Source of the DNA: Micromonospora qiuiae
GTDB lineage: Bacteria > Actinomycetota > Actinomycetes > Mycobacteriales > Micromonosporaceae
Direction: 5' to 3'
Assembly (NCBI RefSeq): GCF_016863555.1
Contig: NZ_BOPC01000041.1
Location: 1-64,000, forward strand
DNA: 64,000 bases
The notes under the pieces were generated by a model. It did not search any database and was not told the DNA's origin. It worked only from the letters and a program-made list of their open reading frames with translations. The translations under genes were made by a program, and so were the position numbers. Below are positions 9,051 through 56,883 of the stretch, one piece after another. The first letter of the stretch is position 1. Each line of letters starts with the position of its first letter.

Positions 9051-9088
9051 CACGCCGGATCGGGTGACAACAACTTCATGGTCAACGG
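9024..9088. terminator. Long inverted repeat (family A, copy 1) between convergent genes
   Basis: Arms 9024-9046 and 9066-9088 match over 23 bases with a single difference, loop 19 bases. The core GTTGATCATGAAGTT recurs in copy 2 at 29893-29955. The left arm is protein-coding for the HTH regulator; the right arm is downstream of pdxT. It is probably a bidirectional terminator. Confidence 0.7.
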
Positions 9089-9109
9089 AAGGGTGACCGT
9101 GAGGGCGGG

Positions 9110-9715
9110 TCAGGCGGTGGTGTGAACGAGGTGGGTGAAGTAGTGGTGCAGGCGTCGGTCGTGGGTGAGTTCCGGGTGGAAGGAGGTGGCCAGGAGGTTG
9201 TTCTGGCGTACGGCGACGATGCGGCCGGCGGCCGGGCCCTCGGTGATGGTGCCCAGCACCTCGACGTCGGGGCCGACCCGCTCCACCCAGGGGGCGCGGA
9301 TGAAGACGGCGTGCAGTGGTCCACCGTCGATCCCGCTGATCTCCACCGGCGCCTCGAACGAGTCGACCTGCCGGCCGAACGCGTTGCGTCGGACGGTCAT
9401 CGCGATGCCGTCGAAGCCGCGCTGGTCCGGCCGGCCGTCGAGGACCTCGGCGGCGAGCATGATCAAGCCGGCGCAGGAGCCGTAGACCGGCATGCCGGCG
9501 GCGATCCGCTTGTCGATCGGTTCGCGCAACTCGAAAATGTCGACCAGCTTGCTGATCGTGGTGGACTCCCCACCCGGGATGACCAGGCCGTCGACCGCGT
9601 CCAACTCCGCCGGGCGGCGCACCGGGCGGGCCTGGGCGCCCACCGCGGCCAGCGCGGCGAGATGTTCGCGGACGTCGCCCTGCAGGGCGAGCACACCGAT
9701 CACGGGTGCCGTCAT
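9110..9715 (-). CDS. pdxT: Pyridoxal 5'-phosphate synthase glutaminase subunit PdxT
   Basis: 201-residue class I glutaminase that supplies ammonia to PdxS in the DXP-independent vitamin B6 pathway. The oxyanion loop IPGGESTT, the nucleophile Cys in [10 protein letters not shown], and the His/Glu pair in SFHPELT near the C-terminus are all present, so it should be active. Start ATG 9715 has AAGGAGG eight bases upstream. It lies downstream of pdxS on the same strand, separated by about 115 bases that contain two copies of a palindromic repeat. Confidence 0.97.
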
Positions 9716-9773
9716 TCGCCCTCCTTCCCGGGCGCCACCGCTCACCGCGTCGCCCGCGCCGGGCTTCCCGAGT

Positions 9774-9826
9774 GTTAAGAAGGGGCCCTTCCTCTACCGC
9801 AGGCGTTAATAAGGGCCCCTTCCTTA
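9774..9826. repeat. Paired GTTAA(G/T)AAGGG(G)CCC repeats between pdxS and pdxT
   Basis: Two direct copies of a palindromic unit, 9774-9793 (GTTAAGAAGGGGCCCTTCCT) and 9805-9826, sit between pdxS and pdxT. Each contains an AAGGG-CCCTT palindrome and could fold into a small hairpin; together they could attenuate pdxT relative to pdxS. I recall similar elements as abundant in Micromonospora and Salinispora genomes, but cannot verify that here. Confidence 0.6.
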
Positions 9827-9830
9827 CACA

Positions 9831-10748
9831 TCACCAGCCGCGGTCGGCGAGGCGGTGGGGGACGGGGATGTCGTCGACGTTGATGCCGACCATCGCCTCG
9901 CCGAGGCCGCGGGAGACCTTGGCCAGCACGTCCGGGTCGTCGTGGAAGGTGGTCGCCTTGACGATCGCGGCGGCCCGCTGCGCCGGGTTGCCGGACTTGA
10001 AGATGCCGGAGCCGACGAAGACGCCCTCCGCGCCGAGCTGCATCATCATCGCCGCGTCGGCCGGGGTGGCGATGCCACCGGCGGTGAACAGCACCACCGG
10101 CAGTTTGCCGGTCTCGGCAACCTCCTTGACCAGCTCGTACGGCGCCTGAAGCTCCTTGGCCGCGACGAACAGCTCGTCGGCCGGCAGCGACGCCAGCCGG
10201 CGGATCTCCTGGCGGATCTTCCGCATGTGGCCGGTGGCGTTGGAGACGTCACCGGTGCCGGCCTCGCCCTTGGAGCGGATCATGGCCGCGCCCTCGGTGA
10301 TCCGGCGCAGCGCCTCGCCCAGGTTGGTCGCCCCGCAGACGAACGGGACGGTGAAGGCCCACTTGTCGATGTGGTTGGCGTAGTCGGCCGGGGTGAGCAC
10401 CTCGGACTCGTCCACGTAGTCGACGCCGAGGGCCTGGAGGATCTGCGCCTCGACGAAGTGACCGATGCGGGCCTTGGCCATCACCGGAATGGAGACCGCG
10501 TTGATGATGCCGTCGATCATGTCGGGGTCACTCATCCGGGACACCCCGCCCTGGGCGCGGATGTCGGCCGGCACCCGCTCCAGCGCCATCACCGCGACCG
10601 CGCCGGCATCCTCAGCGATCTTGGCCTGCTCGGCGGTGACCACATCCATGATCACACCGCCCTTGAGCATCTCGGCCATGCCCCGCTTCACGCGGGCGGT
10701 GCCGACGACCGGGGTGACGCCGGCGTTCGGGGAAGTCGTCTCGGACAC
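9831..10748 (-). CDS. pdxS: Pyridoxal 5'-phosphate synthase lyase subunit PdxS
   Basis: 305 residues, the normal size. It condenses ribose 5-phosphate, glyceraldehyde 3-phosphate and PdxT-derived ammonia into PLP. Diagnostic stretches are [19 protein letters not shown], the [18 protein letters not shown] loop, the catalytic-Lys segment [15 protein letters not shown] and the phosphate-binding [19 protein letters not shown] 10748 is preferred because GAGGAG lies nine bases upstream and earlier in-frame codons are not conserved-looking. It forms an operon with pdxT. Confidence 0.97.
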
Positions 10749-10786
10749 GGGACATTCTCCTCGGGCTGTTCGGGACGGGCAGCGAC

Positions 10787-10792
10787 ATGCTA
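10787..10792 (-). promoter_or_regulatory. Putative -10 box for pdxST
   Basis: TAGCAT on the minus strand, about 40 bases before the pdxS GTG, in the 130-base gap after the preceding gene. It leaves room for a short leader with the GAGGAG ribosome-binding site. No clear -35 was identified. Confidence 0.35.
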
Positions 10793-10881
10793 CGTCCGGC
10801 CGGCCGCCGTGCCGACAGCCAATCGGACCCGCGGTGGCCTGCCCTGTGGCCGCCGTCACCGAGGGCGACGAGCGCCGAGGA

Positions 10882-11403
10882 TCACCTGGTGGTGGCGTCC
10901 ACGGTCGGCACGGAGAGAGTGGGGTCGTCGATGTCGAAGTAGCGCGGCCAGGTGTGCCGCCGCCCCATCCGCAGCAGGCGCACCAGCGGTCGGCCACGGG
11001 CCGTGCGCGCGTCCCGGACCAGGTCGGTGTGCACCTGTCGGGCCAGGGCCAGGCGCCGGCTGGCGGCGATCACCGCCTCGCAGTCGGGGTCGGTGGGGTC
11101 CAGCTCGACCGTGCGCAGCTGGCGGGTCAGGTCGTTCTCGGCGGCTTCCCGCTCCTCCGGCCGCGCGTCGAGCGCGATGCGCGCCGCCGCATACAGCTCG
11201 ACGCCGTAGCGGCGTTCGGCCAGCACCGCCGCCGCGGCGGCCCGGCGCAGCAGGTGGGCGTCCAGGGCGCGGGCGGCGAGCTGCGCGCGGGCCTGGAGCC
11301 GTTCGACCCGGCCGGCCGTCCAGATCAGGTACGCCGCGACCAGGGCGACAAGCACCGTCGCGCCCACCACCCACCACATGCTCGGCATCGTAGTGCTGCT
11401 CAC
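10882..11403 (-). CDS. Membrane-anchored protein of unknown function downstream of pimA
   Basis: 173 residues. One N-terminal membrane helix ([19 protein letters not shown]) is followed by a helical, Ala/Arg-rich cytoplasmic domain with likely coiled-coil character ([21 protein letters not shown] onward) and a polar tail. I do not recognise a characterised family. Start GTG 11403 has GGGAGG six bases upstream and lies 11 bases after the pimA stop, so it is cotranscribed with the phosphatidylinositol-mannoside genes. In related genomes a similar small gene occupies this slot; a role in the PIM pathway is only inference. Confidence 0.75.
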
Positions 11404-12588: not shown

Positions 12589-13467
12589 TCAGTCCAGCCA
12601 CATCCGCTGCAACATGTGCCAGTCTTGCGGATGCCGGGCGATGCCCGCCGCGAGACCGTCGGCGATCCGCTGGGTCAGCGACCGGACCCGCGCGTCCAGC
12701 GCGCCCTCCTGCGGCCCCGGCACCGGCAGCGGGCCCTCGATCGAGGCGCAGGCCGCATCCGGTTCGTACCACATCGACGCCACGTACAGCGGCGCGCCGG
12801 TGCGCAGCGCGAGCAGGGCCGGGCCGGCCGGCATCCGGGTCCGGCCGCCGAAGAACTGCACCTCGACGCCACGGGCGGACAGGTCCCGGTCGGCGAGCAG
12901 CGGCACCACCGCCCCGGCGGTCAGCCGTTCGGTGAGCACCTCGAGCGGCGGCCGATCACCACCGGTGGCGGGCAGGATCTCCATGCCCAGGCTCTTCCGG
13001 AACGCCACGAACCGCTCGTAGACGCCCTCCGGCTTGAGCCGTTCCATGACCGTGGACAACGGCCACTCGTTGGCCACCACCCACGCACCGGCCATGTCCC
13101 AGTTGCCGGCGTGCGGCAACGCCACCACCGCGCCCCGGCCGGCCGCCACGTCGGCGGCGAGCAGTTCGGCGCCGTCCAGCCGGAACCCGGCGAGGATCTG
13201 GTCGCGGCTCAGCGCGGGCAGCCGGAACGCCTCCATCCAATACCGGGCGTACGACCGCAGGCCCCGGCGGACCAGTTCGTCGAGTTCGGCTTCGGGCAGT
13301 TCCGGGCCGACTACCCGACGCAGGTTGGCTCGCAGCCGGGTGGCGCCGGCCCCCCGTCGGCGGTGCGCCCGGTCCGCCACGGCGGTGAACGCCGCCGCGG
13401 CTACCGGGCGGGGCAGCGTGCGGATCACCCGCCAACCGGCGGCGAAGCCGAGTTCGGTGAGGTTCAC
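12589..13467 (-). CDS. Phosphatidylinositol mannoside acyltransferase PatA (LpxL/HtrB-like)
   Basis: 292 residues, lysophospholipid-acyltransferase (LPLAT) fold. The catalytic H-x4-D motif appears as LPHAGNWDMAG, and a conserved Glu-containing segment lies around MERLKPEGVYERF. In mycobacteria PatA adds palmitate to the 6-position of the PimA-linked mannose. Placement between the phosphatidylinositol-phosphate synthase and PimA genes, with 13-base gaps on both sides, supports the assignment. Confidence 0.92.
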   Translation of the reverse strand: MNLTELGFAAGWRVIRTLPRPVAAAAFTAVADRAHRRRGAGATRLRANLRRVVGPELPEAELDELVRRGLRSYARYWMEAFRLPALSRDQILAGFRLDGAELLAADVAAGRGAVVALPHAGNWDMAGAWVVANEWPLSTVMERLKPEGVYERFVAFRKSLGMEILPATGGDRPPLEVLTERLTAGAVVPLLADRDLSARGVEVQFFGGRTRMPAGPALLALRTGAPLYVASMWYEPDAACASIEGPLPVPGPQEGALDARVRSLTQRIADGLAAGIARHPQDWHMLQRMWLD

Positions 13468-13480
13468 GGGCAGGTACCGC

Positions 13481-14113
13481 TCACCTGGGGCCCCCCGGCA
13501 CGTCGACCTGCCGGGCCTGCCGATGGACGTGCCGTATCCGCTGCCCCACCGTGAACAGCGACACCGCCGCGAGCAACCACAGCGCGATCGGCAGCGCCGG
13601 CCCGAGCCCGAGTCCGGCGAGCAGCCCGCCGACGCCGACGATCAGCAGCCGTTCGGTGCGTTCGGCGATACCGACGTTGCAGCTCATGCCGAGCCCTTCG
13701 GCACGGGCCTTGACGTAGGAGACGAGCCCGCCCGCGGCCAGGCAGATCAGCGCGGCGGCCATGCCCGCGCGATCGCCCTCGGTGGCCAGGTAGAACGCGA
13801 CCGCGCCGAACACCGCGCTGTCGGCGACCCGATCCATGCTGGAGTCGAGGAAGGCGCCGAACCGGGTGGATCCGCCGCTCATCCGGGCCATCGTCCCGTC
13901 GAGCAGGTCGGTGAGCGCGAAGACCGTCACGATCAACGCTCCGGCGACCAGGTGGCCGCGGGCGCCGAAGCCGAGCGCACCGACGAGCACCCCGAGGGTG
14001 CCCGCGACGGTGACCGTGTTGGGGGACACGCCCGCGCGCAGCAGGCGGCGGGCGATCGGCTCCACGACACGGGTCATCCCCGCGCGAGCCGACACTTGGA
14101 AGATCTTCGCCAT
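13481..14113 (-). CDS. pgsA: Phosphatidylinositol phosphate synthase (CDP-alcohol phosphatidyltransferase)
   Basis: 210-residue integral membrane enzyme with about six helices. The CDP-alcohol phosphotransferase signature D-x2-D-G-x2-A-R-x8-G-x3-D-x3-D is complete: DLLDGTMAR, then GAFLDSSMDR. In actinobacteria it makes phosphatidylinositol phosphate from CDP-diacylglycerol and inositol 1-phosphate, the precursor for PIMs. It heads the pgsA-patA-pimA operon. The 245-base gap to EF-G2 upstream holds the divergent promoters. Confidence 0.94.
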   Translation of the reverse strand: MAKIFQVSARAGMTRVVEPIARRLLRAGVSPNTVTVAGTLGVLVGALGFGARGHLVAGALIVTVFALTDLLDGTMARMSGGSTRFGAFLDSSMDRVADSAVFGAVAFYLATEGDRAGMAAALICLAAGGLVSYVKARAEGLGMSCNVGIAERTERLLIVGVGGLLAGLGLGPALPIALWLLAAVSLFTVGQRIRHVHRQARQVDVPGGPR

Positions 14114-35747: not shown

Positions 35748-35804
35748 ATCGGTTGCCGGCCGGCGGGTTTGGCCGCCGGAGCACCCGGGTACGTGCCGCC
35801 CTCG

Positions 35805-41162: not shown

Positions 41163-42155
41163 TCAGGCCCGCTCCAGCAGGGTCAGCACCGCCCGCTCGG
41201 CCTGCTCCCGGGGCGTGTCCGGGGTGATTGGCGCCACCACCCCGTCGTGGAACAGATCCACCACCCGTGGGTCCACGTAGGACGTACGCGCCACCGTCGG
41301 GGTGTTGCCCAGCAGCTCCGCCACCTCCCGCATCACCCCCGCCACCGCCCGCCGCCGCGCCGCCACCGACCGCGCCACGGTGAGCGCGGCCAGTTCGGTG
41401 GCCGCCCGCACCGTCGCGTGCCAGGTGCGGAAATCCTTCGCGGTCATCTCCCCACCGCTGGCCGTACGCAGATAGTCGTTGACCTCGTCGGCGCGCACGT
41501 CCCGCCAATCACGCCCGTCCCAGTAACCGAACAGGCGCTCCGCGGCTCGCCGCCGGCGGCGCAGGTCGATCAGCACCCGGCACAGCTCGGGGTCGTCGAC
41601 CAGCCGCACCTGCTCGATGCCGCCCTTGGCCGGGAACTCGAAGACCACGCAGCCGCGCCGGGACCGGGCGTGCTCGGGGCGCAGCGTGGCCACCCCGAAC
41701 GTCGGGTCGTCGCCCACCGCGTACTGGTCGCTGCCGACCCGGAAGATGCCGGTGTCCAGCAGTCGGGTCACCGTCGCCAGCACCCGCGCCCGGCGGAGTC
41801 CCCGCCCGGCCAGGTCGTGATCGACCCGTTCCCGCAGCGCCGGCAGCCGGCGAGCCACCTCCAACACGTGATCGAACTTCGCCTCGTCCTGCCGTTGCCG
41901 CCAGACGGGGTGGTAGAGGTACTGCTTGCGGCCCGCGACGTCGATCCCGGTGGCCTGGATGTGCCCGTTGGGGTACGGCGAGATCCAGACCTCGCGCCAC
42001 GCGGGCGGAATGACCAGCGCCCGCAACCGGGCCAGCTCGTCAGGATCGCGTACCGGCTCGCCGCGCTGGTCCAGAAATGACCAGCCCGAACCGCGCCGGC
42101 GCCGCGCGTACCCCGGCCGGCCCGGATCGCTACGCCGCAACCGCACGGTCGGCAC
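41163..42155 (-). CDS. DNA topoisomerase IB (poxvirus/bacterial type)
   Basis: 330 residues. The N-terminal domain (WSFLDQRGEPVRDPDEL, IPPAWREVWISPYPNGHIQATG) and the catalytic domain are both present. Active-site residues can be located: Arg in YLYHPVWRQRQDEAKF neighbourhood and RRRRAAER, Lys in MTAKDFRTWHAT with the conserved His, and the Tyr nucleophile in ARTSYVDPRVVDLF. It relaxes supercoils by a 3'-phosphotyrosyl intermediate. The stop (41163) lies far from the start of the heptose operon, whose last gene ends 25 bases inside its N-terminal region on the same strand. Confidence 0.93.
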   Translation of the reverse strand: MPTVRLRRSDPGRPGYARRRRGSGWSFLDQRGEPVRDPDELARLRALVIPPAWREVWISPYPNGHIQATGIDVAGRKQYLYHPVWRQRQDEAKFDHVLEVARRLPALRERVDHDLAGRGLRRARVLATVTRLLDTGIFRVGSDQYAVGDDPTFGVATLRPEHARSRRGCVVFEFPAKGGIEQVRLVDDPELCRVLIDLRRRRRAAERLFGYWDGRDWRDVRADEVNDYLRTASGGEMTAKDFRTWHATVRAATELAALTVARSVAARRRAVAGVMREVAELLGNTPTVARTSYVDPRVVDLFHDGVVAPITPDTPREQAERAVLTLLERA

Positions 42156-43083
42156 GCACCACCCGTTCCACCTCGTCCACGGCCGCCAGCACCTCGTCGA
42201 CGGCGAGGGCGGCCATCGCCGGATGGCTACCTACCCCGTCCCAGCCCGGCCATACCCCCGGCCCTGCCCAGAGCACCCGGTGACGCCGGCGCTCCGGCGG
42301 CGGCCCCCATCGGCTCGGCGGTACCGGACCGAACAGCACCACCGAGGCGACCCGGTAGCCGGTGGCCAGATGCGCCACCCCGGTGTCCCCGCTGATCACC
42401 AAACGGGCACCCGCGACCAGGGCGGCCAACCGGCCGAGGTCGGTCCGCCCGGCCAGCACCGCGTCGGGCGGCAGCCCGGCGTCGGCGGCGACCCGCGCGC
42501 CGATCTCCCGCTCCCCCGCGCTGCCGGTCAGCACCACCCGGTGCCCCCGGGCCGTCAACTCCCCGGCCAGGGCCGCGTAGCGGACGGCCGGCCACCGCTT
42601 TGCAACGATCTTGGAGCCGGGATGCAGCACGGTGACGCCGGTGGGCACGTCACCGGGCTCCGGGCGGCGCAGGTCCAGGTCGGTCGGATCGGCCGGAATG
42701 CCGTACGCCGCCAGCAGCCGGCACCAGCGCGCCACCTCGTGCTCGTCGTCGTCCCACGGCGGCCCGTCGACGTGCCCGACATCGGCGTTGGCGAAGGCGA
42801 GCAGCCGGCCGGGCCGGGTGGCGGCGAGCAGCCGGTGCGAGTCCGGTCCCCGGCCGTGCAGGTTGACCGCGACCTCGACCGGGCCGGCGAGGCGCTCCAG
42901 CCGGTCCAGCCCTTCGGTCGGCAGCAGCCGGTCCACGCCGCCGACCAGCTCGACCAGCGGCCCCAGCCAGGCCGGCGTGGCGAGCACCAGTTCCCGCCCG
43001 GGGTAGGCCACCCGCAGCGCCCGCAGCGCCGGGACCGCGGTGGCGAGGTCACCGACGCCCAGGGCACGCAGGGCCAGGATCAC
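42130..43083 (-). CDS. Glycosyltransferase family 9 (heptosyltransferase-like)
   Basis: 317 residues, GT-B fold, GT9 family. ILALRALGVGDLATAVPALRAL matches the LPS heptosyltransferase N-terminus (RxxALGDxL), and the donor site TVLHPGSKIVAKRWP and ISGDTGVAHLATGYRVASVVLFGP are the GT9 hallmarks. LPS heptosyltransferases WaaC/WaaF use ADP-heptose, and this gene lies last in an ADP-heptose operon, so a heptosyl-transfer role is a fair inference. GTG 43083 overlaps the SDR stop. The 3' end overlaps the topoisomerase start by 26 bases. Confidence 0.9.
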   Translation of the reverse strand: MILALRALGVGDLATAVPALRALRVAYPGRELVLATPAWLGPLVELVGGVDRLLPTEGLDRLERLAGPVEVAVNLHGRGPDSHRLLAATRPGRLLAFANADVGHVDGPPWDDDEHEVARWCRLLAAYGIPADPTDLDLRRPEPGDVPTGVTVLHPGSKIVAKRWPAVRYAALAGELTARGHRVVLTGSAGEREIGARVAADAGLPPDAVLAGRTDLGRLAALVAGARLVISGDTGVAHLATGYRVASVVLFGPVPPSRWGPPPERRRHRVLWAGPGVWPGWDGVGSHPAMAALAVDEVLAAVDEVERVVRADRAVAA

Positions 43084-43766
43084 GGGTACGAAGTCTCCTC
43101 CTCGGCGCAGACCACCAGTTCCCGTACCGCGCAGCCAGCGGGCTGGGAGAGCGCGAACAGCACCGCGGCGGCGGTGTCCGCCGGGTCGTTGAGGACAGCG
43201 TCCGGCCCCGGGCGGTACCGGGCATCGCGGTCGTCGAAGAAGCCGGTACGCATCCCGCCCGGCACCAGCAGGGTGACGCCCACCCGGCCGGCCAGTTCGG
43301 CAGCGAGCGCCCGGGTGAACCCGACCACCCCGAACTTGGCCGCGCAGTAGGCCGTCGCGTCGCTGACCGCCTTCAAGCCCAGCGTGGAGGCCACCGTGAC
43401 GACGCTGCCCCGGGACGCCTCCAGGAACGGCAGGGCGGCCCGGATCACCGCCGCGGTGGCGAGCAGGTCCACCGCGACGATGCGGTCCCACGTCTCGCCG
43501 GGCACGTCGGCGAGCCGCCCGGGCACGTCGATGCCGGCCGCCGTGACCACGGCGTCCAGCCCGCCGACCCGCTCGACGAGCCGCCGGGTGGCCTCCTCCG
43601 CGCCCCGGGTGTCGGCCAGATCACACTCGATCCACGGCACCCCGTCGGCCGGTGGCCGCCGGTCCAGCACCAGCGGCCGGCCGCCGGTACCGGCCACCGC
43701 GGCGACCACCGCCGCGCCCAGGCCGCTGGACCCGCCGGTGACCAGCACGGTCCGCGCGCCGCTCAC
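43080..43766 (-). CDS. Short-chain dehydrogenase/reductase (classical SDR)
   Basis: 228 residues. Rossmann motif GGSSGLG near the N-terminus, DVPGR and the catalytic Ser-Tyr-Lys in VTVASTLGLKAV and ATAYCAAKFG. The fold is classical SDR (3-oxoacyl reductase-like), not the extended SDR of HldD epimerase, so it does not obviously perform the ADP-heptose epimerisation. It sits between the GT9 and HldE genes and could act on a sugar or lipid in the same pathway; the substrate is unknown. GTG 43766 has GGAGAG upstream. Confidence 0.88.
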   Translation of the reverse strand: MSGARTVLVTGGSSGLGAAVVAAVAGTGGRPLVLDRRPPADGVPWIECDLADTRGAEEATRRLVERVGGLDAVVTAAGIDVPGRLADVPGETWDRIVAVDLLATAAVIRAALPFLEASRGSVVTVASTLGLKAVSDATAYCAAKFGVVGFTRALAAELAGRVGVTLLVPGGMRTGFFDDRDARYRPGPDAVLNDPADTAAAVLFALSQPAGCAVRELVVCAEEETSYP

Positions 43767-43830
43767 GCCGGCTCTCCGCCGCGCCGCGGCACCGCCGCCC
43801 GGCCAGGGCGATCCACACACCGCTGCGCGC

Positions 43831-45267
43831 TCATCGGGCCACCTGCGCGTTCCGCCGGCCGGCCGTCGCGGCGATCATCTGGCTGGTGGAGCGCCCGTCC
43901 AGGTACGGCACCACCACGGTGTGCCCGCCCCAGCGGCGCAGGATCTCCGCCTCGGGCAGGGCGTCACCGTCACCGCCGCCGGTGGCGTAGTCCCCGCCCT
44001 TGACCCAGATGTCCGGCCGTAGCCAGGACAGCGCCGCCGCCGGCGTCGGCTCGTCGAAGATCATGACCGCGTCGACGCAGCTCAGCGCGGCCAGCAATCG
44101 GCTCCGGTCGTCCTGCCGCATGACCGGGCGGTCCGGGCCCTTCAGGCCGCTGACACTGGCGTCGGAGTTGAGGCACACCACCAGGCAGTCACCGAGTTGC
44201 CGGGCGGCCTGCAGAGTCGCCACGTGACCGGCGTGCAGCAGGTCGAAACAACCACCGGTGGCGACCACCGTCCCGCCGGCGGCCCGGACCCGGGCCACCA
44301 CGGAGGCGGCCGCGGACACCCCGACCCGGTCACCGGCCACCGCGGCATGCACCGCGTGCGGCACCCGGCGCACGGCCGGCGGCAAAGCGCTCGCCACCCC
44401 CCCGTCCGCCACGTACGCGGAGGCGTCGGCCACCGCCTCCTGCACCGCCTCGGAGACCACCGCCCCACGGGCCAGAGCGAGCCCCGCGGTGGCGGCGAAG
44501 CGGTCCCCGGCACCGCAGGTGTCCCCGTCGGCGGCGAACGGGGCAGGCACCATCAGCGGGGTCGATCCGGCGTGGCTGAGCAGCGCGCCGTCGGCGCCCA
44601 GCGTCACCGCGACCGCACCCGCCCGCCATCGCCGCCGAAGCCGCTCGGCGCACTCGGTGGCCGTGGCCAGCCGGGTGGCGGCGGCCGGCACCTCCACCAA
44701 CTCCCGCACCTCCGCCTCGTTCGGGGTGACCAGGTGCACTCCCGGCACCGCCGCCGGCCCGCGCGGATGCGGATCCCAGACCAGTGGGGCCCGGGTCGCC
44801 GCCATGGCCACCCGCAGCGCCGGCTGGCGTGCCACCCCCCGGCCGTAGTCGCTGACCAGCAGCACCGACGCCTGCTCGATGATCCGCAGCACCGCCTCGG
44901 CGGGCTCCCCGGGCTCGCTGGCGCCACCGCCCCGGTCGTGCCGCAGCAGCACCCGGCCCCCGGCCCGCAGCCGGATCTTCTCCGGAGTGGCCCCGGCCAG
45001 CGGCAACGGATACACCTGCACCCCCGCGGCGGCCAGCAGCACGCCCAGCCGGGCTCCGCCCGCGTCGTCGGCCAGCGCGGTGACCAGCACCACCTCGACG
45101 CCGTGCTGCGCGGCGAAGATGGCGGCGAGTCCGGCGCCGCCGGGCCGGTCGACGTGCGCCATCTCGTCGAGCACCGGTGCCGGCGAGTCGGGGCAGAGCC
45201 GGTTGACCATGCCCTCGACGTCCCGGTCGAGCAGGGTGTCGCCAACCACCACCACGGGTCCCGTCAC
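43831..45267 (-). CDS. hldE: Bifunctional HldE: heptose 7-phosphate kinase / heptose 1-phosphate adenylyltransferase
   Basis: 478 residues, two domains. Residues 1-310 are a PfkB-type kinase with the NRLCPDSPAPVL and GGAGLAAIFAAQHG regions and the anion-hole GDTCGAGDRF. Residues 330-478 are a cytidylyltransferase-like domain with GCFDLLHAGHVATLQAAR (HxGH) and the GRSTS motif. It converts D-glycero-D-manno-heptose 7-phosphate to the 1,7-bisphosphate and, after GmhB, adenylates the 1-phosphate to ADP-heptose. GTG 45267 has GAGGAGGAAG upstream. Confidence 0.93.
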   Translation of the reverse strand: MTGPVVVVGDTLLDRDVEGMVNRLCPDSPAPVLDEMAHVDRPGGAGLAAIFAAQHGVEVVLVTALADDAGGARLGVLLAAAGVQVYPLPLAGATPEKIRLRAGGRVLLRHDRGGGASEPGEPAEAVLRIIEQASVLLVSDYGRGVARQPALRVAMAATRAPLVWDPHPRGPAAVPGVHLVTPNEAEVRELVEVPAAATRLATATECAERLRRRWRAGAVAVTLGADGALLSHAGSTPLMVPAPFAADGDTCGAGDRFAATAGLALARGAVVSEAVQEAVADASAYVADGGVASALPPAVRRVPHAVHAAVAGDRVGVSAAASVVARVRAAGGTVVATGGCFDLLHAGHVATLQAARQLGDCLVVCLNSDASVSGLKGPDRPVMRQDDRSRLLAALSCVDAVMIFDEPTPAAALSWLRPDIWVKGGDYATGGGDGDALPEAEILRRWGGHTVVVPYLDGRSTSQMIAATAGRRNAQVAR

Positions 45268-45277
45268 GCCTTCCTCC

Positions 45278-45949
45278 TCACGCCTCGACCGGTCGGCTGG
45301 CGCCACCGTCCAGCACCACCTCGACCCCGGCCCGCACCGGTCCAGCGGCCGGCGCGGCCGGGACCGTCGATTCGAGGTTCTCCGGCAGCGCCTGTTCGAC
45401 GTACTCGCAGAGCAGGTGACTGGAGACCAGGTGCAGCTCCTGGACGACCTGGCTGTCCGGTGACTCCACGGCCAGCACCTCGTGGCAGGCGTCGGCGAGC
45501 GGATTCGGGGCCGGCCCGGTGAGGGCCCAGCAGCGCAGCCCGACATCCCGCCCCGCCCGCGCGGCGGCGAGCAGGTTGCCGCTGCCGCCGCTGGTGGAGA
45601 GCAGCAGCAGCACGTCGTCGCGGCGGCCGTGGGCGCGGACCTGGCGGGCGAAGACCTCGTCGTAGCCGTAGTCGTTGCCGATCGCGGTCAGCGCCGAGGT
45701 CTCGGCGTGCAGCGCGATGGCGGACAGCGGCTGGCGGTCGTCGCGGAGCTTGCCGACCAGTTCGGCGGTGAGGTGCTGCGCCTCGGCGGCGCTGCCGCCG
45801 TTGCCGGCCACCAACAGCCGGCCGCCGGCGGTGAGCCGACGCGCCAGCGTGGCGCCCCAGCGGGCGAGCAGCGGCTCGCACCGCCGGTACGGCGGCAGCG
45901 CCGCCGCCAGCTGCGCCAGGTGCTCCTCCAGCAGGGTCGGCGCCGGCAT
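45278..45949 (-). CDS. gmhA: Phosphoheptose isomerase GmhA (SIS domain)
   Basis: 223 residues. The SIS fold carries GNGGSAAEAQHLTAELVGK and STSGGSGNLLAAARAG, diagnostic for sedoheptulose 7-phosphate isomerases, plus the late Q-E-x-H motif (VVQELHLVSSHLLCEYVE). It makes D-glycero-D-manno-heptose 7-phosphate from sedoheptulose 7-phosphate. A C-terminal extension of about 30 residues is unusual. The ATG overlaps the GT4 stop by one base, and the HldE gene follows after 10 bases. Confidence 0.93.
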   Translation of the reverse strand: MPAPTLLEEHLAQLAAALPPYRRCEPLLARWGATLARRLTAGGRLLVAGNGGSAAEAQHLTAELVGKLRDDRQPLSAIALHAETSALTAIGNDYGYDEVFARQVRAHGRRDDVLLLLSTSGGSGNLLAAARAGRDVGLRCWALTGPAPNPLADACHEVLAVESPDSQVVQELHLVSSHLLCEYVEQALPENLESTVPAAPAAGPVRAGVEVVLDGGASRPVEA

Positions 45950-47166
45950 CAGGCCACCACTCGGCTCGGCCGGTGCACGGCGGCCACCTCGTCGTAGACC
46001 TCGGCGAGCCGCTCGGCGGTGACCGTCCAGGAGTAGTGCTGCCGGGCCCGGGCGCGGGCCGCGCCCGCGTAGGCGAACCGTCGGATCCGGTCGTCGAGCA
46101 GCCGCTGCAGCGCCTGGCCCAACGCCCTCGGGTCCCGGGCCGGCACCAGATCCCCGGTCACGCCGTCGACCACCGTGTCACGCAGCCCGCCGACGGCGGT
46201 GGCCACCACGGGCACCCCGCACGCCATCGCCTCCAGCGGAGTCAGACCGAACGGCTCGTACCAGGGTGCGGCGACCAGGACGTCCGCCGAGCGGTACCAG
46301 CGGCCCATCTCCTCGCGGGGCACCGCGCCGACCAGGCGGACCCGGTCGGCCACGCCGCAGCTGCCGGCCAGGGCGCGCAGCCGACGGGCGTACGGGTCGG
46401 TCTCCAGCAGGCCGGCCGGCGGGCCGCCCACCACCACGCACTCCGCGTCGGGTACGTGCGTCATGGCCCGCACCACGGTCTGAAAGCCCTTGCGTTCGAC
46501 CAACCGGCCGACGGTGAGGATCCGGGCCCGTCCGGGTTCCCGTTCGGCGGCCGGTCCGAGCGGGGCGAAGGTGCCCAGATTGACCCCGGACGGGATGACC
46601 GTGATCCGGGACCGGGACACCCCCATCCGGACCAGCTCGCCGACCTCGTCGCGGCACTGGGCGATCACCCGGTCGACCGTACGGCCCAACTGGAGCTCGT
46701 AGCTGATTCGCCGGGCCGGGCTGGTGTCCTGCACGCCCTGGTGGCGACGCTTGACCGTGCCCAGCGCGTGGTACGTCTGCACCACCGGTATCCCGGTCTG
46801 CCGGCTGGCCTCCAGCGCGGCCAGCCCGCTCATCCAGAAGTGCGCGTGGATCACCTCGGGTGCCCAGTCCCCGCCCCGCCAGCGGTCCAACAGCCATGCG
46901 CTGAACGGCGGCATGTGCGGCAGCAGAGCATCCTTGGCGACCGGCTCGGCGGGACCGGCCGCCACGTGCACCACGTCGTAGCCGTCCGGGCTGCGTACGG
47001 TCACCGGCAGGTCGACCGCGTCGCGGCGGGTGTAGACGCGTACGTCGTGCCCGGCGGCGGCGAGCGCGGCGGAGAGTTCCGCGACGTGCGTGTTCTGGCC
47101 GCCGGCGTCCTCTCCACCGAGGATGGCGAGCGGGCTGGCGTGCTCCGAGATCATCGCTATGCGCAT
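45949..47166 (-). CDS. Glycosyltransferase family 4
   Basis: 405 residues, GT-B fold. MRIAMISEHASPLAILGGEDAGGQNTH is typical of MshA/sucrose-phosphate-synthase-like GT4 enzymes (GGxxVH acceptor loop). The donor site has the E-x7-E motif in YEPFGLTPLEAMACGVPVVA, and IPSGVNLGTF and VGRLVERKGF are intact. Substrates unknown; in context it adds a sugar to the heptose-containing product. ATG 47166 has GAGGAGGAAG upstream and overlaps the preceding gene by 10 bases. Confidence 0.9.
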   Translation of the reverse strand: MRIAMISEHASPLAILGGEDAGGQNTHVAELSAALAAAGHDVRVYTRRDAVDLPVTVRSPDGYDVVHVAAGPAEPVAKDALLPHMPPFSAWLLDRWRGGDWAPEVIHAHFWMSGLAALEASRQTGIPVVQTYHALGTVKRRHQGVQDTSPARRISYELQLGRTVDRVIAQCRDEVGELVRMGVSRSRITVIPSGVNLGTFAPLGPAAEREPGRARILTVGRLVERKGFQTVVRAMTHVPDAECVVVGGPPAGLLETDPYARRLRALAGSCGVADRVRLVGAVPREEMGRWYRSADVLVAAPWYEPFGLTPLEAMACGVPVVATAVGGLRDTVVDGVTGDLVPARDPRALGQALQRLLDDRIRRFAYAGAARARARQHYSWTVTAERLAEVYDEVAAVHRPSRVVA

Positions 47167-48128
47167 ACTTCCTCCTCCAGGAGCCGGTCCCAGTCGGCGA
47201 GGAAACGGTCGAGGCCGTAGCGTTCGCGGGCGGCGGCGCGGGCCTGTGCACCCGCCCGCCGCGCCCGGTCCGGTTCGGCGACGAGCCGCCCAGCGGCCGC
47301 CAGCAGGGCGTCGACCCGGGTGGACAGGGCACCGGCATCGGGCGGGACCGCCATCACCGCCTCGGTGGTGGCCAGCGCCACCACCGGCATGCCGATGCTC
47401 ATCGCCTCGATCAGGCTCAACCCGAGCGAGGTCCACCGGCACAGGTGCAGGTACGCCCGCCGCCTGGCCAGCTCGGCGTGCATCCGATGCTGCGGCACGT
47501 CGTCATGGCTGATCAGCCGGTCTGCGGGCAGCCCGAGCTGTTCGGCCAGCCCGGTCACTTTCAGGCCGAAGACGTCCAGCGGGGCGATCTCGGCGAACCG
47601 GGGCAGCAGATCGGTGCCGGTGACCCGCCACCGGCGTACCGGCTCGTTGATCACCACAGCCAGCCGGTCCAGCTCACCGGTGTAGGCCACGGCCGGTGGC
47701 ACGATGCCGTGGTCGATGACGGTGGTCCGGGTCGAGCCGGTGTCCCAGAAAAGTTCGTTGAACGCGGTCACGTGGGCGATGAGCAGGTCGTCCCGGTCGG
47801 CCATCGGGTGGCGGCTGTGCGGGACGTCGCCGTCCTTCGGGGTGTTGTGCTCCACGTAGATCGCCGGCAGGTCCCGGCCCGGGCGGCGGCCGAGCCACTC
47901 GGCCGCCAGGTCGATCTCTTCGGGGCGTTGCAGGATGACCACGTCGACCTCGGCGCTGCGCAGCTGCTCGGGGCTGATCTCGGCCGCGCTCTCCGGCCAG
48001 GTGTAGGTGCGCGCGCGGCCGAGGCCGTACGGACCCCGGTCCGGGGTGGCCGGCACCAGGTAGCGGTGCTTGCCGTGCACGAACGAGGTGGTCCAGGAGC
48101 CGTGCACGTGCCAGAGGAGGATGTTCAT
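47157..48128 (-). CDS. Glycosyltransferase (GT4-like), 323 residues
   Basis: NILLWHVHGSWTTSFVHGKH is a distinctive N-terminus; later LAHVTAFNE-like and WRVTGTDLLPRF regions precede a GT-B donor domain with TSLGLSLIEAMSIGMPVVAL (E-x7-E-like). The N-terminal half lacks a GGxxxH acceptor loop, so the acceptor is unusual. Homologues in related actinobacteria are annotated only as glycosyltransferase. GGGAGG precedes the ATG; it overlaps the downstream GT4 start by 10 bases and the fused phosphatase stop by four. Confidence 0.82.
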   Translation of the reverse strand: MNILLWHVHGSWTTSFVHGKHRYLVPATPDRGPYGLGRARTYTWPESAAEISPEQLRSAEVDVVILQRPEEIDLAAEWLGRRPGRDLPAIYVEHNTPKDGDVPHSRHPMADRDDLLIAHVTAFNELFWDTGSTRTTVIDHGIVPPAVAYTGELDRLAVVINEPVRRWRVTGTDLLPRFAEIAPLDVFGLKVTGLAEQLGLPADRLISHDDVPQHRMHAELARRRAYLHLCRWTSLGLSLIEAMSIGMPVVALATTEAVMAVPPDAGALSTRVDALLAAAGRLVAEPDRARRAGAQARAAARERYGLDRFLADWDRLLEEEVCA

Positions 48129-49876
48129 CGTTTCCTCCCACCGCTGGCGGGCACCGGCGGCGCGGCCCGCGACACCGTGCCGAGCAGGGCCGCCGGGCGA
48201 CGCGCCGGCGGTACGCCCAGCAGCCGCAGGGCGTCGAGAACCGTGTCCGGCTCGACGCCGCCCAGGCAGGGGTGGCCGGGCACCGGGCAGTGCGCGGCAC
48301 GGGTGTCGCGGCAGGCGGCCGTGGCGTCTCCCAGGCGTACCGTCGGCACCCGCCACGGTCCCCACTGCCCGAACGGGACGGTGGGAGCGAAGAGGCTGAC
48401 CACCGGCACGCCGTGCGCGGCGGCCAGGTGCGCCGGGCCGGTGTTGCCGACCACCACCGCGGCGGCGGCGGCCACCACCGCGGAGAGCTCGGCCAGCCCG
48501 GTACCGCCGCCCAGGTCCACGGCGTGCCGGCCGGCGACCCGGGCGGTGAGATCGCGCTCCTGCGGGCCACCGGTGACGACCACGCGGTGCCCGGCGGCGG
48601 TCAACCGCCGGGCGATCCGCTCGGCCACCTCCGGCGGGCAGCCCCGGGCCGGCGCGGCCGACCCGGGATGCAGCACCACGTACCCCGGATCACCTGCCTG
48701 CGCCGGAGGTGACGGCACCGGACGCAATCGAAGGCACGGCTCGTCACCGGCGGGCAGCGCGTAGCCGGCGGCGGCAGCCAACGACAGGGCGCGTTCGGCC
48801 TCGGGGACTCCGGCCGGCACCCGGTGCCGTACGTCCAGCAAGCTGCCCGGGTAGTCGTCGCTGATCGCGGCGATCCGTCCGATACCGGCCATCCGCAGCA
48901 GCAGCGCCAACGGCAGCGGCGACTGGTGGAACGAGGTGAAGACGACCGCCTCGTCGGCGGCGACGGCGGCGAGCCGGGTGGTCAGCGCCGCCAGCTGAGC
49001 CGGATCGACCGGCCCGGGCATCGGGTCGATCCACGGCAGCGCGTGCTCGACCACCTCGTCGACGCCGGGCAGCAGTTCGGCGGCGGCCCGGCCGCGCGGG
49101 CCGCAGAGCAGCACCACCCGGTCCGCCCCGGCCGCGACCGCCCGGATGCCCGGCCCGGTCACCAACACGTCTCCCGTCGAGTCCGACCGCACCACCAGCA
49201 CTGTCCGCTTTCCGCCGGCACGGGTCCCGGCGGGGGCCCGGAGCCTGTCGGGCGGCGCCGAAGCCGGTCGCAGCGCATCCCGGCGACGCAGCAGTTCCAC
49301 AACCGCCGACGGCAGGTCGCCGGCCACCCAGGGCGCGGCGGCGATCTCCTCGGCCCGGGTCACCGGCGTCGGCACCAGAAGGCCCGCGGCACCGGCGGCC
49401 AGCGCGGCCGTGACATCGCGTCCGATGTCGCCGATCAGCACGCAGCGGGCGGGCACGGTACCCAGCGCCTTGGCGGCGGCGTGCACCAGCCCCGGCGCCG
49501 GCTTACGGCAGGCACAGCCATCCCCGTCGTCGTGCGGGCACACCTGCCAGGAGTCGAACGGGCCGAGCAGAGCGTCGATCCGGCGGTGCACCCGATCCAG
49601 TTGCCGCTCGGTGAACAGGCCCCGGGCGAGCCCCGACTGGTTGGTCACCACGGCGAGCTTGAAGCCGGCCGCCCTCAGCCGGTCCAGGGCGGAGCGAGCC
49701 CCCGGCATGGGGCGGACCTTGTCCGGATCGCCGTTGTACGGCACGTCCTCGATGAGGGTGCCATCCCGGTCCAGCAGGACCGCGTCGAACAGGACCGGCC
49801 CCGATCCGGCCTGGCCGGCAGCGGCCAGCACCCCGGCTGACCTGCGCTGATCCGGCTCCCCATGGTCCTGTCGCAC
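48125..49876 (-). CDS. GmhB-type HAD phosphatase fused to GT9 glycosyltransferase
   Basis: 583 residues, two enzymes. Residues 30-190: a HAD phosphatase of the GmhB/HisB-N class with LLDRDGTLIEDVPYNGDP, VVTNQSGLARG, the zinc-type CPHDDGDGCACRKP and IGDIGRDV; it would remove the 7-phosphate of heptose 1,7-bisphosphate. Residues 225-560: a GT9 domain with VLVVRSDSTGDVLVTGPGIRA, VLHPGSAAPARG and VVGNTGPAHLAAAHGVPVVSLF. Start GTG 49876 is the first in frame near the HAD fold; the ribosome-binding site is weak. It is first gene of the heptose operon. Confidence 0.9.
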   Translation of the reverse strand: MRQDHGEPDQRRSAGVLAAAGQAGSGPVLFDAVLLDRDGTLIEDVPYNGDPDKVRPMPGARSALDRLRAAGFKLAVVTNQSGLARGLFTERQLDRVHRRIDALLGPFDSWQVCPHDDGDGCACRKPAPGLVHAAAKALGTVPARCVLIGDIGRDVTAALAAGAAGLLVPTPVTRAEEIAAAPWVAGDLPSAVVELLRRRDALRPASAPPDRLRAPAGTRAGGKRTVLVVRSDSTGDVLVTGPGIRAVAAGADRVVLLCGPRGRAAAELLPGVDEVVEHALPWIDPMPGPVDPAQLAALTTRLAAVAADEAVVFTSFHQSPLPLALLLRMAGIGRIAAISDDYPGSLLDVRHRVPAGVPEAERALSLAAAAGYALPAGDEPCLRLRPVPSPPAQAGDPGYVVLHPGSAAPARGCPPEVAERIARRLTAAGHRVVVTGGPQERDLTARVAGRHAVDLGGGTGLAELSAVVAAAAAVVVGNTGPAHLAAAHGVPVVSLFAPTVPFGQWGPWRVPTVRLGDATAACRDTRAAHCPVPGHPCLGGVEPDTVLDALRLLGVPPARRPAALLGTVSRAAPPVPASGGRKR

Positions 49877-50112
49877 GGGCGGCGGGTTCCCGGCGCCCAG
49901 GGGAGTAAACGTCGGCCGCGGCGCGGTGGGCGTCGACCGCGCGTCGGCACCCCACGGACGCCGCCGCGGTGGCCTTACCCACGGCCCCGGAGAAGCTAAC
50001 CCGCCCGAGCGGTTAGCCGAGACCGGGGCGAGGGTAGGGCGAAGACGGCGCACTGACGACGCCGCCACGACGGGGCAGTGGGAGCCATTTCCCCCCGGAA
50101 GGGACAACTGGC

Positions 50113-50153: not shown

Positions 50154-50921
50154 ATGATCGAACCCGTCCAGTTGCCCTCGCCGTGGCGGGACGTGCGGCT
50201 GACCGTCGTGGTGCCGACCTACAACGAGGCGGGCAACCTGCCGGTGCTGGTCGAGCGGCTGCTCGCCCTTCCACTGCCCGGCCTGAAGGTGCTGGTCGCC
50301 GACGACAACTCCCCCGACGGCACCGGCGAGGTCGCCGACAAGCTCGCGATCGAGCATCCCGAGCGGATCGAGGTGGTGCACCGGCCGGGCAAGGAGGGCC
50401 TCGGCCGCGCGTACGTGGACGGGATCAGCCGGGCACTCGACGGCGGCGCCGAGTACGTGGCCCAGATGGACGCCGACCTGTCCCACCCGGCGGAGGCTCT
50501 GCCGGGCATGCTCGGCGCCCTGCTCTCCACCCAGGCCGGGGTGGTCATCGGCTCACGGTACGTCCCCGGTGGCGAGTTGGACGAGAACTGGCCGCTGTAC
50601 CGGCGGGCCCTCAGCGGCTGGGCGAACCTCTACGTGCACACGCTGCTGCGGGTGCGGATCCGGGACCTGACCGCCGGCTTCAAGATCTGGCGGGCCGACG
50701 CGCTGCGCGACATCGGGCTGGAGCGGGTCCAGTCCAACGGCTACAGCTTCCAGGTCGAGATGCACTACCTCGCCACCAAGCTGGGGCACACCATCCTCGA
50801 GGTGCCGATCCGGTTCGAGGAGCGGCGTGACGGCGCCTCGAAGATGACCACCGCCACGAAGATCGAGAGTGCGCTGATGCCGTTCAAGCTCCGCAGCCGG
50901 CACCGCAACATCCAACGCTGA
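50154..50921 (+). CDS. Polyprenol monophosphomannose synthase (Ppm1/DPM1-like GT2)
   Basis: 255-residue GT2 enzyme. VVVPTYNEAGNLPVLVERL, VADDNSPDGTGEVAD and the metal-binding MDADLSHPAEALPGML are the DPM1 signature, followed by GSRYVPGGELDENWP and the C-terminal FEERRDGASKM. It transfers mannose from GDP-mannose to polyprenyl phosphate, giving the lipid-linked donor for outer PIM, lipomannan or protein mannosylation. In mycobacteria this domain is often fused to the apolipoprotein acyltransferase; here it stands alone. It is divergent from the heptose operon. Confidence 0.93.
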   Translation: MIEPVQLPSPWRDVRLTVVVPTYNEAGNLPVLVERLLALPLPGLKVLVADDNSPDGTGEVADKLAIEHPERIEVVHRPGKEGLGRAYVDGISRALDGGAEYVAQMDADLSHPAEALPGMLGALLSTQAGVVIGSRYVPGGELDENWPLYRRALSGWANLYVHTLLRVRIRDLTAGFKIWRADALRDIGLERVQSNGYSFQVEMHYLATKLGHTILEVPIRFEERRDGASKMTTATKIESALMPFKLRSRHRNIQR

Positions 50922-54672: not shown

Positions 54673-54824
54673 CTCGAACCTCCTCCGTGTGCGAGCGATT
54701 CCCTGTGGCGTTCCCGCTGCCGTCGCCGGCAAACCTCTGGGCCGGTTTGCCCGAGGTCGGGGCCGGGTACCGGCGCCGACACCGGCGCGCGGCGCAGGCG
54801 CCGGCCGCACGACAGGAGACCGCT

Positions 54825-56813: not shown

Positions 56814-56883
56814 CCACACATCCTCACCGCCGGCCTCCACGCCCCAGCGGTTTGGGGCATGGGGGTGGGGGTACGGCGATGGT

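Follow-up and report, generated by a model that had tools for sequence, protein, structure and literature searches.

Our analysis of a 64,000-nucleotide stretch of Micromonospora qiuiae DNA (assembly GCF_016863555.1, contig NZ_BOPC01000041.1, positions 1 to 64,000 of the forward strand; hereafter the window) places seven minus-strand genes, between positions 42130 and 49876, in the family of cwg, a 12-gene operon of Streptomyces coelicolor (SCO6179-6190) for a putative cell wall glycan (PMC6767563, in the portion of that paper available to us). The operon is therefore not new in kind, being a member of a family already known from Streptomyces. It is probably a Micromonospora/Salinispora-specific, paralogous derivative of the actinobacterial cwg operon, which we call type B, and its difference lies in the variant. 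Its products are likely to form a cytoplasmic pathway that makes a nucleoside diphosphate (NDP)-heptose and an uncarbamoylated heptosyl envelope glycan or glycolipid. From the promoter end onward the seven genes are:

48125-49876, minus strand: GmhB, a putative HAD-type heptose-1,7-bisphosphate phosphatase, fused to a GT9 domain, here GT9a (PRK08942 GmhB, 120.7 bits; PF01075; GTG start at 49876)
47157-48128, minus strand: a divergent GT-B glycosyltransferase of GT4 type, here GTx (PF00534, 29.8 bits)
45949-47166, minus strand: a GT4 glycosyltransferase resembling MshA and sucrose-phosphate synthase, here GT4m (TIGR03449 MshA, 254 bits, below the cut-off of 462.5)
45278-45949, minus strand: GmhA, putative sedoheptulose-7-phosphate isomerase (TIGR00441, 153.7 bits, below the cut-off of 209.45)
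43831-45267, minus strand: HldE, putative bifunctional heptose-7-phosphate kinase and heptose-1-phosphate nucleotidyltransferase (PRK11316, 248 bits over both domains, below the cut-off of 521)
43080-43766, minus strand: a classical short-chain dehydrogenase (SDR; TGxxxGxG and S-YxxxK motifs), not HldD (PF00106)
42130-43083, minus strand: a GT9 heptosyltransferase-family enzyme, here GT9b (PF01075, 90 bits)

A sequence-only reading of the window had proposed an unbroken seven-gene operon here, and the open reading frames, the family assignments and the intergenic gaps bear it out: the gaps are -4, -10, -1, +10, +64 and -4 base pairs (bp), and the largest lies ahead of the SDR gene. The families are also as that reading named them, except that it called GmhB only 'fused'; the fusion partner is a second GT9 (PF01075, 66.9 bits against a cut-off of 22), and the operon holds four glycosyltransferases, two of GT9 and two of GT4 type. 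All four activities of the NDP-D,D-heptose pathway (GmhA, the HldE kinase, GmhB and the HldE nucleotidyltransferase) appear to be encoded with their catalytic motifs. GmhA matches phosphoheptose isomerases in the PDB (1tk9 and 2xbl, E 2e-39 to 3e-39), and HldE matches 5x9q through its nucleotidyltransferase and 4e84 through its kinase, with CGAGD, HxGH and KGGDY motifs and a C-terminal YLDGRSTS. GmhB (4pnh, 2gmw) has DRDGT and the zinc motif CxH..CxC, and is the only strong GmhB in the genome (124 bits; the runner-up scores 28.9 bits). GT9b matches heptosyltransferase II (1psw, E 3e-17) and heptosyltransferase I (2h1f) and contains HPGS..KRWP and DTGVAH, while the GT9a part matches the GT9 structures 3tov and 1psw. 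GT4m is nearest in sequence to sucrose-phosphate synthase and MshA (6kih, 3c4q). The nearest PDB chains of the SDR are generic classical SDRs; an HldD role for it was dropped on family, motifs and these chains. GTx has a weak sequence match, and fold settles its assignment as a predicted GT-B enzyme of the BshA/MshA/PimA kind: its AlphaFold2 model (mean predicted local distance difference test score 94.4) has BshA, sucrose-phosphate synthase, MshA and PimA as nearest folds by Foldseek and alignment (Z 25.6-27.5), and VIA-align against 3mbo_C gave Z 27.5 over 302 residues at 2.9 A.

These motifs are conserved among relatives. In HldE, HxGH and KG[GA]DY occur in 100 of 100 rows and CGAGD[RQ] in 90 of 100; the GmhB zinc motif is present in 86/86 rows and D[RI]DG[TV] in 80/86; the SDR rows have YxxxK in 81/81 and the glycine motif in 78/81; and the GmhA pattern GNGGSA was found in 67 of 95. 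The incomplete counts may reflect the patterns themselves, fragments or divergence. The GT9b motif was found in 80 of 83 rows and reads DTGxxH in every one of them, whereas GT9a has NTG in place of DTG in all 78 rows, out of 89, where the motif was found. Since this difference lasts across the rows, it suggests that the two GT9 enzymes have different jobs.

The sequence-only reading missed the relationship to cwg. The gene order, which it proposed to look for in other actinobacterial genomes, recurs across Actinomycetota. Four Streptomyces loci (L161, L163, L073 and L075, the last two assigned to Streptomyces by tree place) have the 12-gene order epimerase, carbamoyltransferase, GT2, GmhB, GT9a, GTx, GT4m, GmhA, HldE, GT9b, GT2, GT2, and 11 of these 12 genes were called in S. 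violaceoruber (L153). Reportedly, Hong et al. described cwg in 2002 as an operon induced by vancomycin and putatively concerned with a cell wall glycan. In the available portions of PMC6767563 and PMC5839063, the S. coelicolor operon is vancomycin-induced and partly sigmaE-dependent, with a phosphoheptose isomerase as its eighth gene (SCO6186) and a bifunctional synthase/transferase as its ninth (SCO6187); GmhA and HldE stand eighth and ninth in the 12-gene Streptomyces loci. From gene order and product names we infer a gene-by-gene match to S. coelicolor, and the window operon would thus be of cwg type. GmhB, GT9a, GTx, GT4m, GmhA, HldE and GT9b are common to the window operon and these Streptomyces loci in one order. 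Unlike Streptomyces cwg, the window operon lacks the epimerase, the carbamoyltransferase, the GT2 at the cwgC place and both GT2 genes at the end of the cluster; its GmhB is fused to GT9a where Streptomyces has separate genes, and it has an SDR where none was found inside the Streptomyces clusters.

With a limit of E <= 1e-60, an HldE profile gave hits in 42 genomes out of 396 sampled from the phylum, and 20 stretches around such hits were read (one, L063, was poorly called). The common layout is a carbamoyltransferase and a GT2 together with GmhB (fused or apart), GT9a, GTx, GT4m, GmhA, HldE, SDR and GT9b; individual lineages add an epimerase, a UDP (uridine diphosphate)-glucose dehydrogenase or further GT2 genes, and rearranged versions occur, for example in Lentzea. 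A second scan took the best 80 of 566 named relatives, a sample that leans to close kin. The operon was found in 11 of 12 genus relatives, and a contig end cuts it in one (L024). GmhB is labelled as fused to GT9a in all 47 Micromonosporaceae loci that have a GmhB, and in other lineages it is fused to GT2 (5 loci) or stands apart; these fusions in different lineages tie GmhB, GT9a and GT2 together. Among the 80 named loci, a GmhA-HldE fusion occurs in 7 (L112, L120, L121 and L122, from Actinoplanes/Paractinoplanes, and L139, L147 and L157), and neighbouring lineages have two genes. One cwg-type cluster (L138) lies on a contig titled as a Chloroflexi metagenome-assembled genome, with its HldE among actinobacterial rows; mis-binning or transfer is the likely cause.

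Besides the window, the type-B form was found at 31 named Micromonospora and Salinispora loci, at a fixed site. All 31 have the seven genes in the same order on one strand, allowing for gene-call faults in L098 (GmhB-GT9 called in two pieces) and L105 (GT9b misplaced near a contig end), so the operon is not a chance arrangement. Gene content and flanks served first to define the two types, which were then checked against a tree, and the following counts by group are to that extent circular, which the tree is not: carbamoyltransferase, GT2 at the cwgC place and epimerase are absent from 31 of 31 type-B loci in flanks reaching at most 10 kb (the contig of L102 starts with the operon and is uninformative upstream), while a carbamoyltransferase and a GT2 stand in front of the cluster in 7 of 11 type-A Micromonospora loci (in the remaining 4 the contig starts within the cluster) and in 9 of 9 loci of Actinoplanes, Paractinoplanes, Dactylosporangium and Rugosimonospora. 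Type-A clusters in Micromonospora, Actinoplanes, Dactylosporangium and Rugosimonospora share with the window the GmhB-GT9a fusion, GTx, GT4m, GmhA, HldE, SDR and GT9b in the same order; they differ in the NodU/CmcH-type carbamoyltransferase and GT2 at the start and in their genomic places. Both types occur on one contig in Micromonospora sp. MP36 and MA102, and on two contigs in M. globbae. In a tree of 98 HldE rows (a quick method, with Shimodaira-Hasegawa-like approximate likelihood ratio support only), a branch with support 95 separates type B from all other rows, and the support is 100 for type A and 99 for Micromonosporaceae; the branches between groups within the family are weak. Because forms with the carbamoyltransferase surround type B, its most likely history, judged from these comparisons, is a loss of the carbamoyltransferase and GT2.

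The region ahead of type-B operons is marked by two promoter-like elements:

49975-50000, minus strand: GTTAGCT-N13-GGGTAA, in 29 of 31 type-B upstream regions (0.05 expected in shuffles)
49886-49910, minus strand: GTTTACTC-N11-GGGAAC, in 31 of 31 type-B upstream regions (0.1 expected), 9 bp before the GTG at 49876

The 31 regions include the window and leave out L102, whose contig begins at the operon. The upper element, of the form GTTAGCT-N13-GGGTA[A/T], is missing in L108 and L124. Close kinship inflates both counts, and we regard as telling the fixed spacing amid upstream sequence that is otherwise hardly alignable around the two blocks. Neither exact element was found in 16 type-A-like regions (0/16) or in 10 Streptomyces regions; a looser form of the upper element occurs in 2 of the 16, and GTTWRCT-N13-GGGTAW has a single site in the 6.76 Mb genome. 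Both elements resemble what we take to be the -35/-10 pair of SigB/SigF-type promoters, the second departing from it with GGGAAC for GGGTAY. The position of the lower element would suit a leaderless message, and because the GTG at 49876 follows this fully conserved element by 9 bp, we prefer it, which is also the start given by the sequence-only reading, as the start of GmhB-GT9a to the gene caller's 49831. A strict sigmaE pattern (AAC ... TC) was found in 5/31 type-B, 0/16 type-A-like and 0/10 Streptomyces regions, a scan that missed all of its Streptomyces controls. By hand inspection with a loose pattern, a site very close to the published cwg promoter lies upstream of the first gene in L073 and not in L153, L161 or L163. 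Elsewhere in the window, three sites of the form GTT[TAG]-N-GGGTA[TAC] on the plus strand (35767-35792, 54745-54770 and 56850-56874) end 9-54 bp before called genes at 35805, 54825 and 56884, and would suit a stress-type sigma factor.

Two neighbours flank the type-B operon:

41163-42155, minus strand: DNA topoisomerase IB (PF01028), in 30 of 31 type-B loci
50154-50921, plus strand: a divergent GT2 gene (PF00535), in 29/31 type-B, 0/11 type-A and 0/9 other Micromonosporaceae loci

The topoisomerase gene probably lies outside the heptose pathway. The GT2 is presumably polyprenol-phosphate-mannose-synthase-like.

Tentatively, and with more against it than for it in our estimation, these differences could be joined in a single history. 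Micromonospora and Salinispora would have duplicated cwg and shed the carbamoyltransferase and GT2, and the copy would have left the envelope-stress regulation by sigmaE and come under a sigma factor of stress or development type (through the GTT-N15-GGGTA-like promoters, one of them placed so as to yield a leaderless mRNA). It would make an uncarbamoylated glycan from adenosine diphosphate (ADP)-, cytidine diphosphate (CDP)- or UDP-heptose, and a strain that has both operons would be able to alternate between two forms of one surface glycan.

In the pathway that we favour for the window operon, GmhA, HldE and GmhB would convert sedoheptulose 7-phosphate into NDP-D,D-heptose, and with no HldD the heptose should keep its D,D (D-glycero-D-manno) form. 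GT9b, and perhaps GT9a, would transfer the heptose, the two GT4-type enzymes would attach other sugars to an acceptor that is a lipid or a small molecule, and the product would be an envelope glycan or glycolipid that in type B has no carbamoyl group. As to the nucleotide donor and TRANSFERASES, the C-terminus of the window HldE (YLDGRSTS) has the key Arg, with Tyr for Phe/Leu at position 1 and Ser for the last Thr. According to commentaries on Tang et al. (2024), in the portions available, the Arg of (F/L)XXGRSTT, the STTR5 motif, marks nucleotidyltransferases that also take cytidine and uridine triphosphates (CTP/UTP). Arg stands at this place in 31 of 32 type-B rows, the window included, and in 90 of 100 rows overall (4 read by eye), the others having His (4) or Tyr (6). 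Because HldE has this Arg, it is not certain that ADP-heptose would be the sole product. The sequence-only reading had ADP-heptose being made: the complete set of enzymes from sedoheptulose 7-phosphate to NDP-heptose, with GT9 enzymes, is indeed present, and it is the choice of ADP as the only nucleotide that is uncertain. That reading called ADP-heptose production in a bacterium without lipopolysaccharide (LPS) notable; in actinobacteria it is not surprising, for the published record as available to us already has the actinobacterial heptoses of septacidin and hygromycin B, cross-kingdom enzymes and an actinobacterial survey. The commentaries, as excerpted, describe a tridomain synthetase, GmhA fused to HldE, for NDP-heptose, and report that NDP-heptoses activate ALPK1 and have producers in non-LPS organisms and across kingdoms. 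The part as an immune ligand that the sequence-only reading raised is possible.

Non-LPS use, as the sequence-only reading supposed, agrees with the rest of the genome (6.76 Mb in 211 contigs). No match to LpxC was found in it, and no HldD over the cut-off (best 110.8 bits against 274.6); on these two results an LPS-type role was dropped, and NDP-D,D-heptose used outside LPS is the expected product. Among the best 80 of 566 named relatives the closest HldE is that of Micromonospora endophytica (92% over 467 columns); the row of the window lies within the Micromonospora rows. Other genes of interest were found elsewhere in the genome. Two GmhA-like SIS proteins (contig C101, locus L172, 1423-2998) were set aside as a heptose locus since their neighbours are the hydrogenase-maturation genes hypF, hypE and hypD. 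Of 13 genus genomes searched for a carbamoyltransferase, this one included, four (G001, G002, G003 and G011) had no match. A stand-in for the missing cwg gene was dropped as well: the sole match in this genome (contig C38, locus L166) is 36% identical to the cwg carbamoyltransferase, adjoins a nonribosomal peptide synthetase (NRPS)-type adenylation-domain protein and looks like part of a natural-product cluster.

Several observations weigh against this account. All seven proteins score under the NCBIfam equivalog cut-offs, and for that reason they are divergent homologues and not LPS orthologues. GT9a, with NTG for DTG, may not use ADP-heptose, and the STTR5 match in HldE is imperfect. Within the operon there is neither a flippase, a polymerase or a ligase nor, by a crude hydropathy scan, any clear membrane protein; values slightly above 1.6 were reached by the SDR, HldE, GTx and the GT9 fusion. 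A looser sigmaE-like site occurs upstream of type B at the level of chance (5/31 against 5.8 expected), in a scan that finds few of its own positives: at equal settings it gave 1/16 type-A-like regions (2.2 expected) and 2/10 Streptomyces regions (1.2 expected), the two being L073 and L075, whose sites resemble the published cwg promoter. The surroundings of one distant HldE hit, L074, contain no cwg genes; the protein there (9088-11127, 679 amino acids with an HldE-like region, from a Streptomyces-group genome, family f11) sits on the longest branch of the tree. Finally, the cwg literature, in its available portions, gives no measured enzyme activity and no identified product, and none of the literature matches listed deals with the chemistry of a heptose-containing cell-wall polymer from an actinomycete. 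With no clear membrane or export gene in the operon, a surface location for the product rests on the cwg precedent; the vancomycin induction of S. coelicolor cwg favours the envelope. Polysaccharide pyruvyltransferase-family (PS_pyruv_trans) genes also lie beside cwg clusters of distant lineages (L065, 10912-11799; L070, 7496-8443; L073, 13910-14863) and speak for a polysaccharide or the envelope.

The acceptor could be more specific than we have proposed. MshA/PimA-like GT4 enzymes might start on inositol and the GT9 enzymes add heptose, giving a heptosylated inositol or phosphatidylinositol glycolipid. The sequence affinity of GT4m with sucrose-phosphate synthase and MshA and the BshA/MshA/PimA-like fold of GTx are in keeping with this, as are lipid genes elsewhere in the window: models for the phosphatidylinositol mannoside (PIM) acyltransferase (12589-13467) and phosphatidylinositol-phosphate synthase (13481-14113) were passed, which confirms the PIM lipid context noticed in the sequence-only reading. 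GT4 acceptors are very varied, however, a shared fold shows no substrate, and GT4m lies under the MshA model cut-off. We regard this glycolipid as possible, if rather doubtful.

The sequence-only reading had left the choice between a surface glycan and a secondary metabolite; the glycan is probable, and the metabolite is made less likely by the one fixed site in the genus. A soluble heptose natural product would have parallels in the known actinomycete heptose pathways, which in the literature available serve antibiotics (septacidin, hygromycin B), and would agree with the lack of clear membrane or export genes. The genome's other carbamoyltransferase does adjoin an NRPS-type adenylation protein. 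Carbamoyltransferases of the same family as the cwg enzyme also occur in antibiotic clusters, a further point for this view. Yet the operon keeps its chromosomal place, with flanks constant in 29-30 of 31 loci, and occurs in 11/12 genus relatives and 42/396 genomes of the phylum, unlike a patchy antibiotic cluster; it has no regulator or assembly-line gene inside, and its S. coelicolor homologue is vancomycin-induced (PMC6767563, available portion). A soluble product is accordingly unlikely in our view.

Another heptose locus in the same genome (contig C22, locus L013, 8421-12379) encodes a 624-amino-acid HldE ('HldE2'), a GT2 and a GT9, and GmhA and GmhB were not among the genes called around it. 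The nucleotidyltransferase half of HldE2 scores above the TIGR02199 cut-off, such a copy occurs in 12 of 12 same-genus relatives, and an HldE2 module lies near the cwg cluster in L144, L165 and L169. The window operon might chiefly supply heptose phosphates to this second locus, its own transferases being secondary; it has the genome's only strong GmhB, the second locus has an HldE without GmhA or GmhB among its called genes, the modules in L144, L165 and L169 are near cwg, and of 9 same-genus genomes searched, 5 have no strong GmhA other than that of the window type. The genome of the window does not belong to these five, having two further GmhA-like genes (135 and 112 bits), though these are the ones beside hydrogenase genes, and the operon has an HldE and four glycosyltransferases of its own, all conserved. 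We consider a chiefly supplying role improbable. It is very improbable that the true substrates are other sugar phosphates and that the heptose names mislead: all the proteins fall below equivalog cut-offs, SIS, PfkB and HAD are broad families and some motif patterns are not met in every row, but GT9 enzymes accompany the combination of an isomerase, a bifunctional HldE and GmhB, with conserved motifs (HldE 100/100, GmhB zinc 86/86), and the GmhA-HldE fusion of 7/80 named loci is of the NDP-heptose tridomain synthetase type.

The envelope glycan or glycolipid that we favour carries a concrete prediction: heptose, carbamoylated or not according to operon type, in the envelope of Gram-positive actinomycetes. 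In the literature as available the cwg product is still only predicted, and the cluster would represent an NDP-heptose pathway over much of Actinomycetota. Common soil and marine genera would then join the cross-kingdom NDP-heptose producers. Paired type-A and type-B operons with differing upstream elements offer a natural comparison for the identity of the glycan and for its timing.

Compared with the LPS-core pathway of E. coli (GmhA-HldE-GmhB-HldD with WaaC/WaaF), the window shares homologues of GmhA, HldE, GmhB and GT9; unlike E. coli, its host has no HldD over the cut-off and no LpxC match, the proteins are divergent and GT9a is without DTG. The septacidin and hygromycin B pathways of Streptomyces, as described in the available literature, resemble the window in drawing on a sedoheptulose-7-phosphate-derived NDP-heptose in an actinomycete. 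Compared by description only, those are antibiotic pathways, whereas in the window the transferases encoded with the heptose genes are two of GT9 and two of GT4 type, and their place on the chromosome is conserved.

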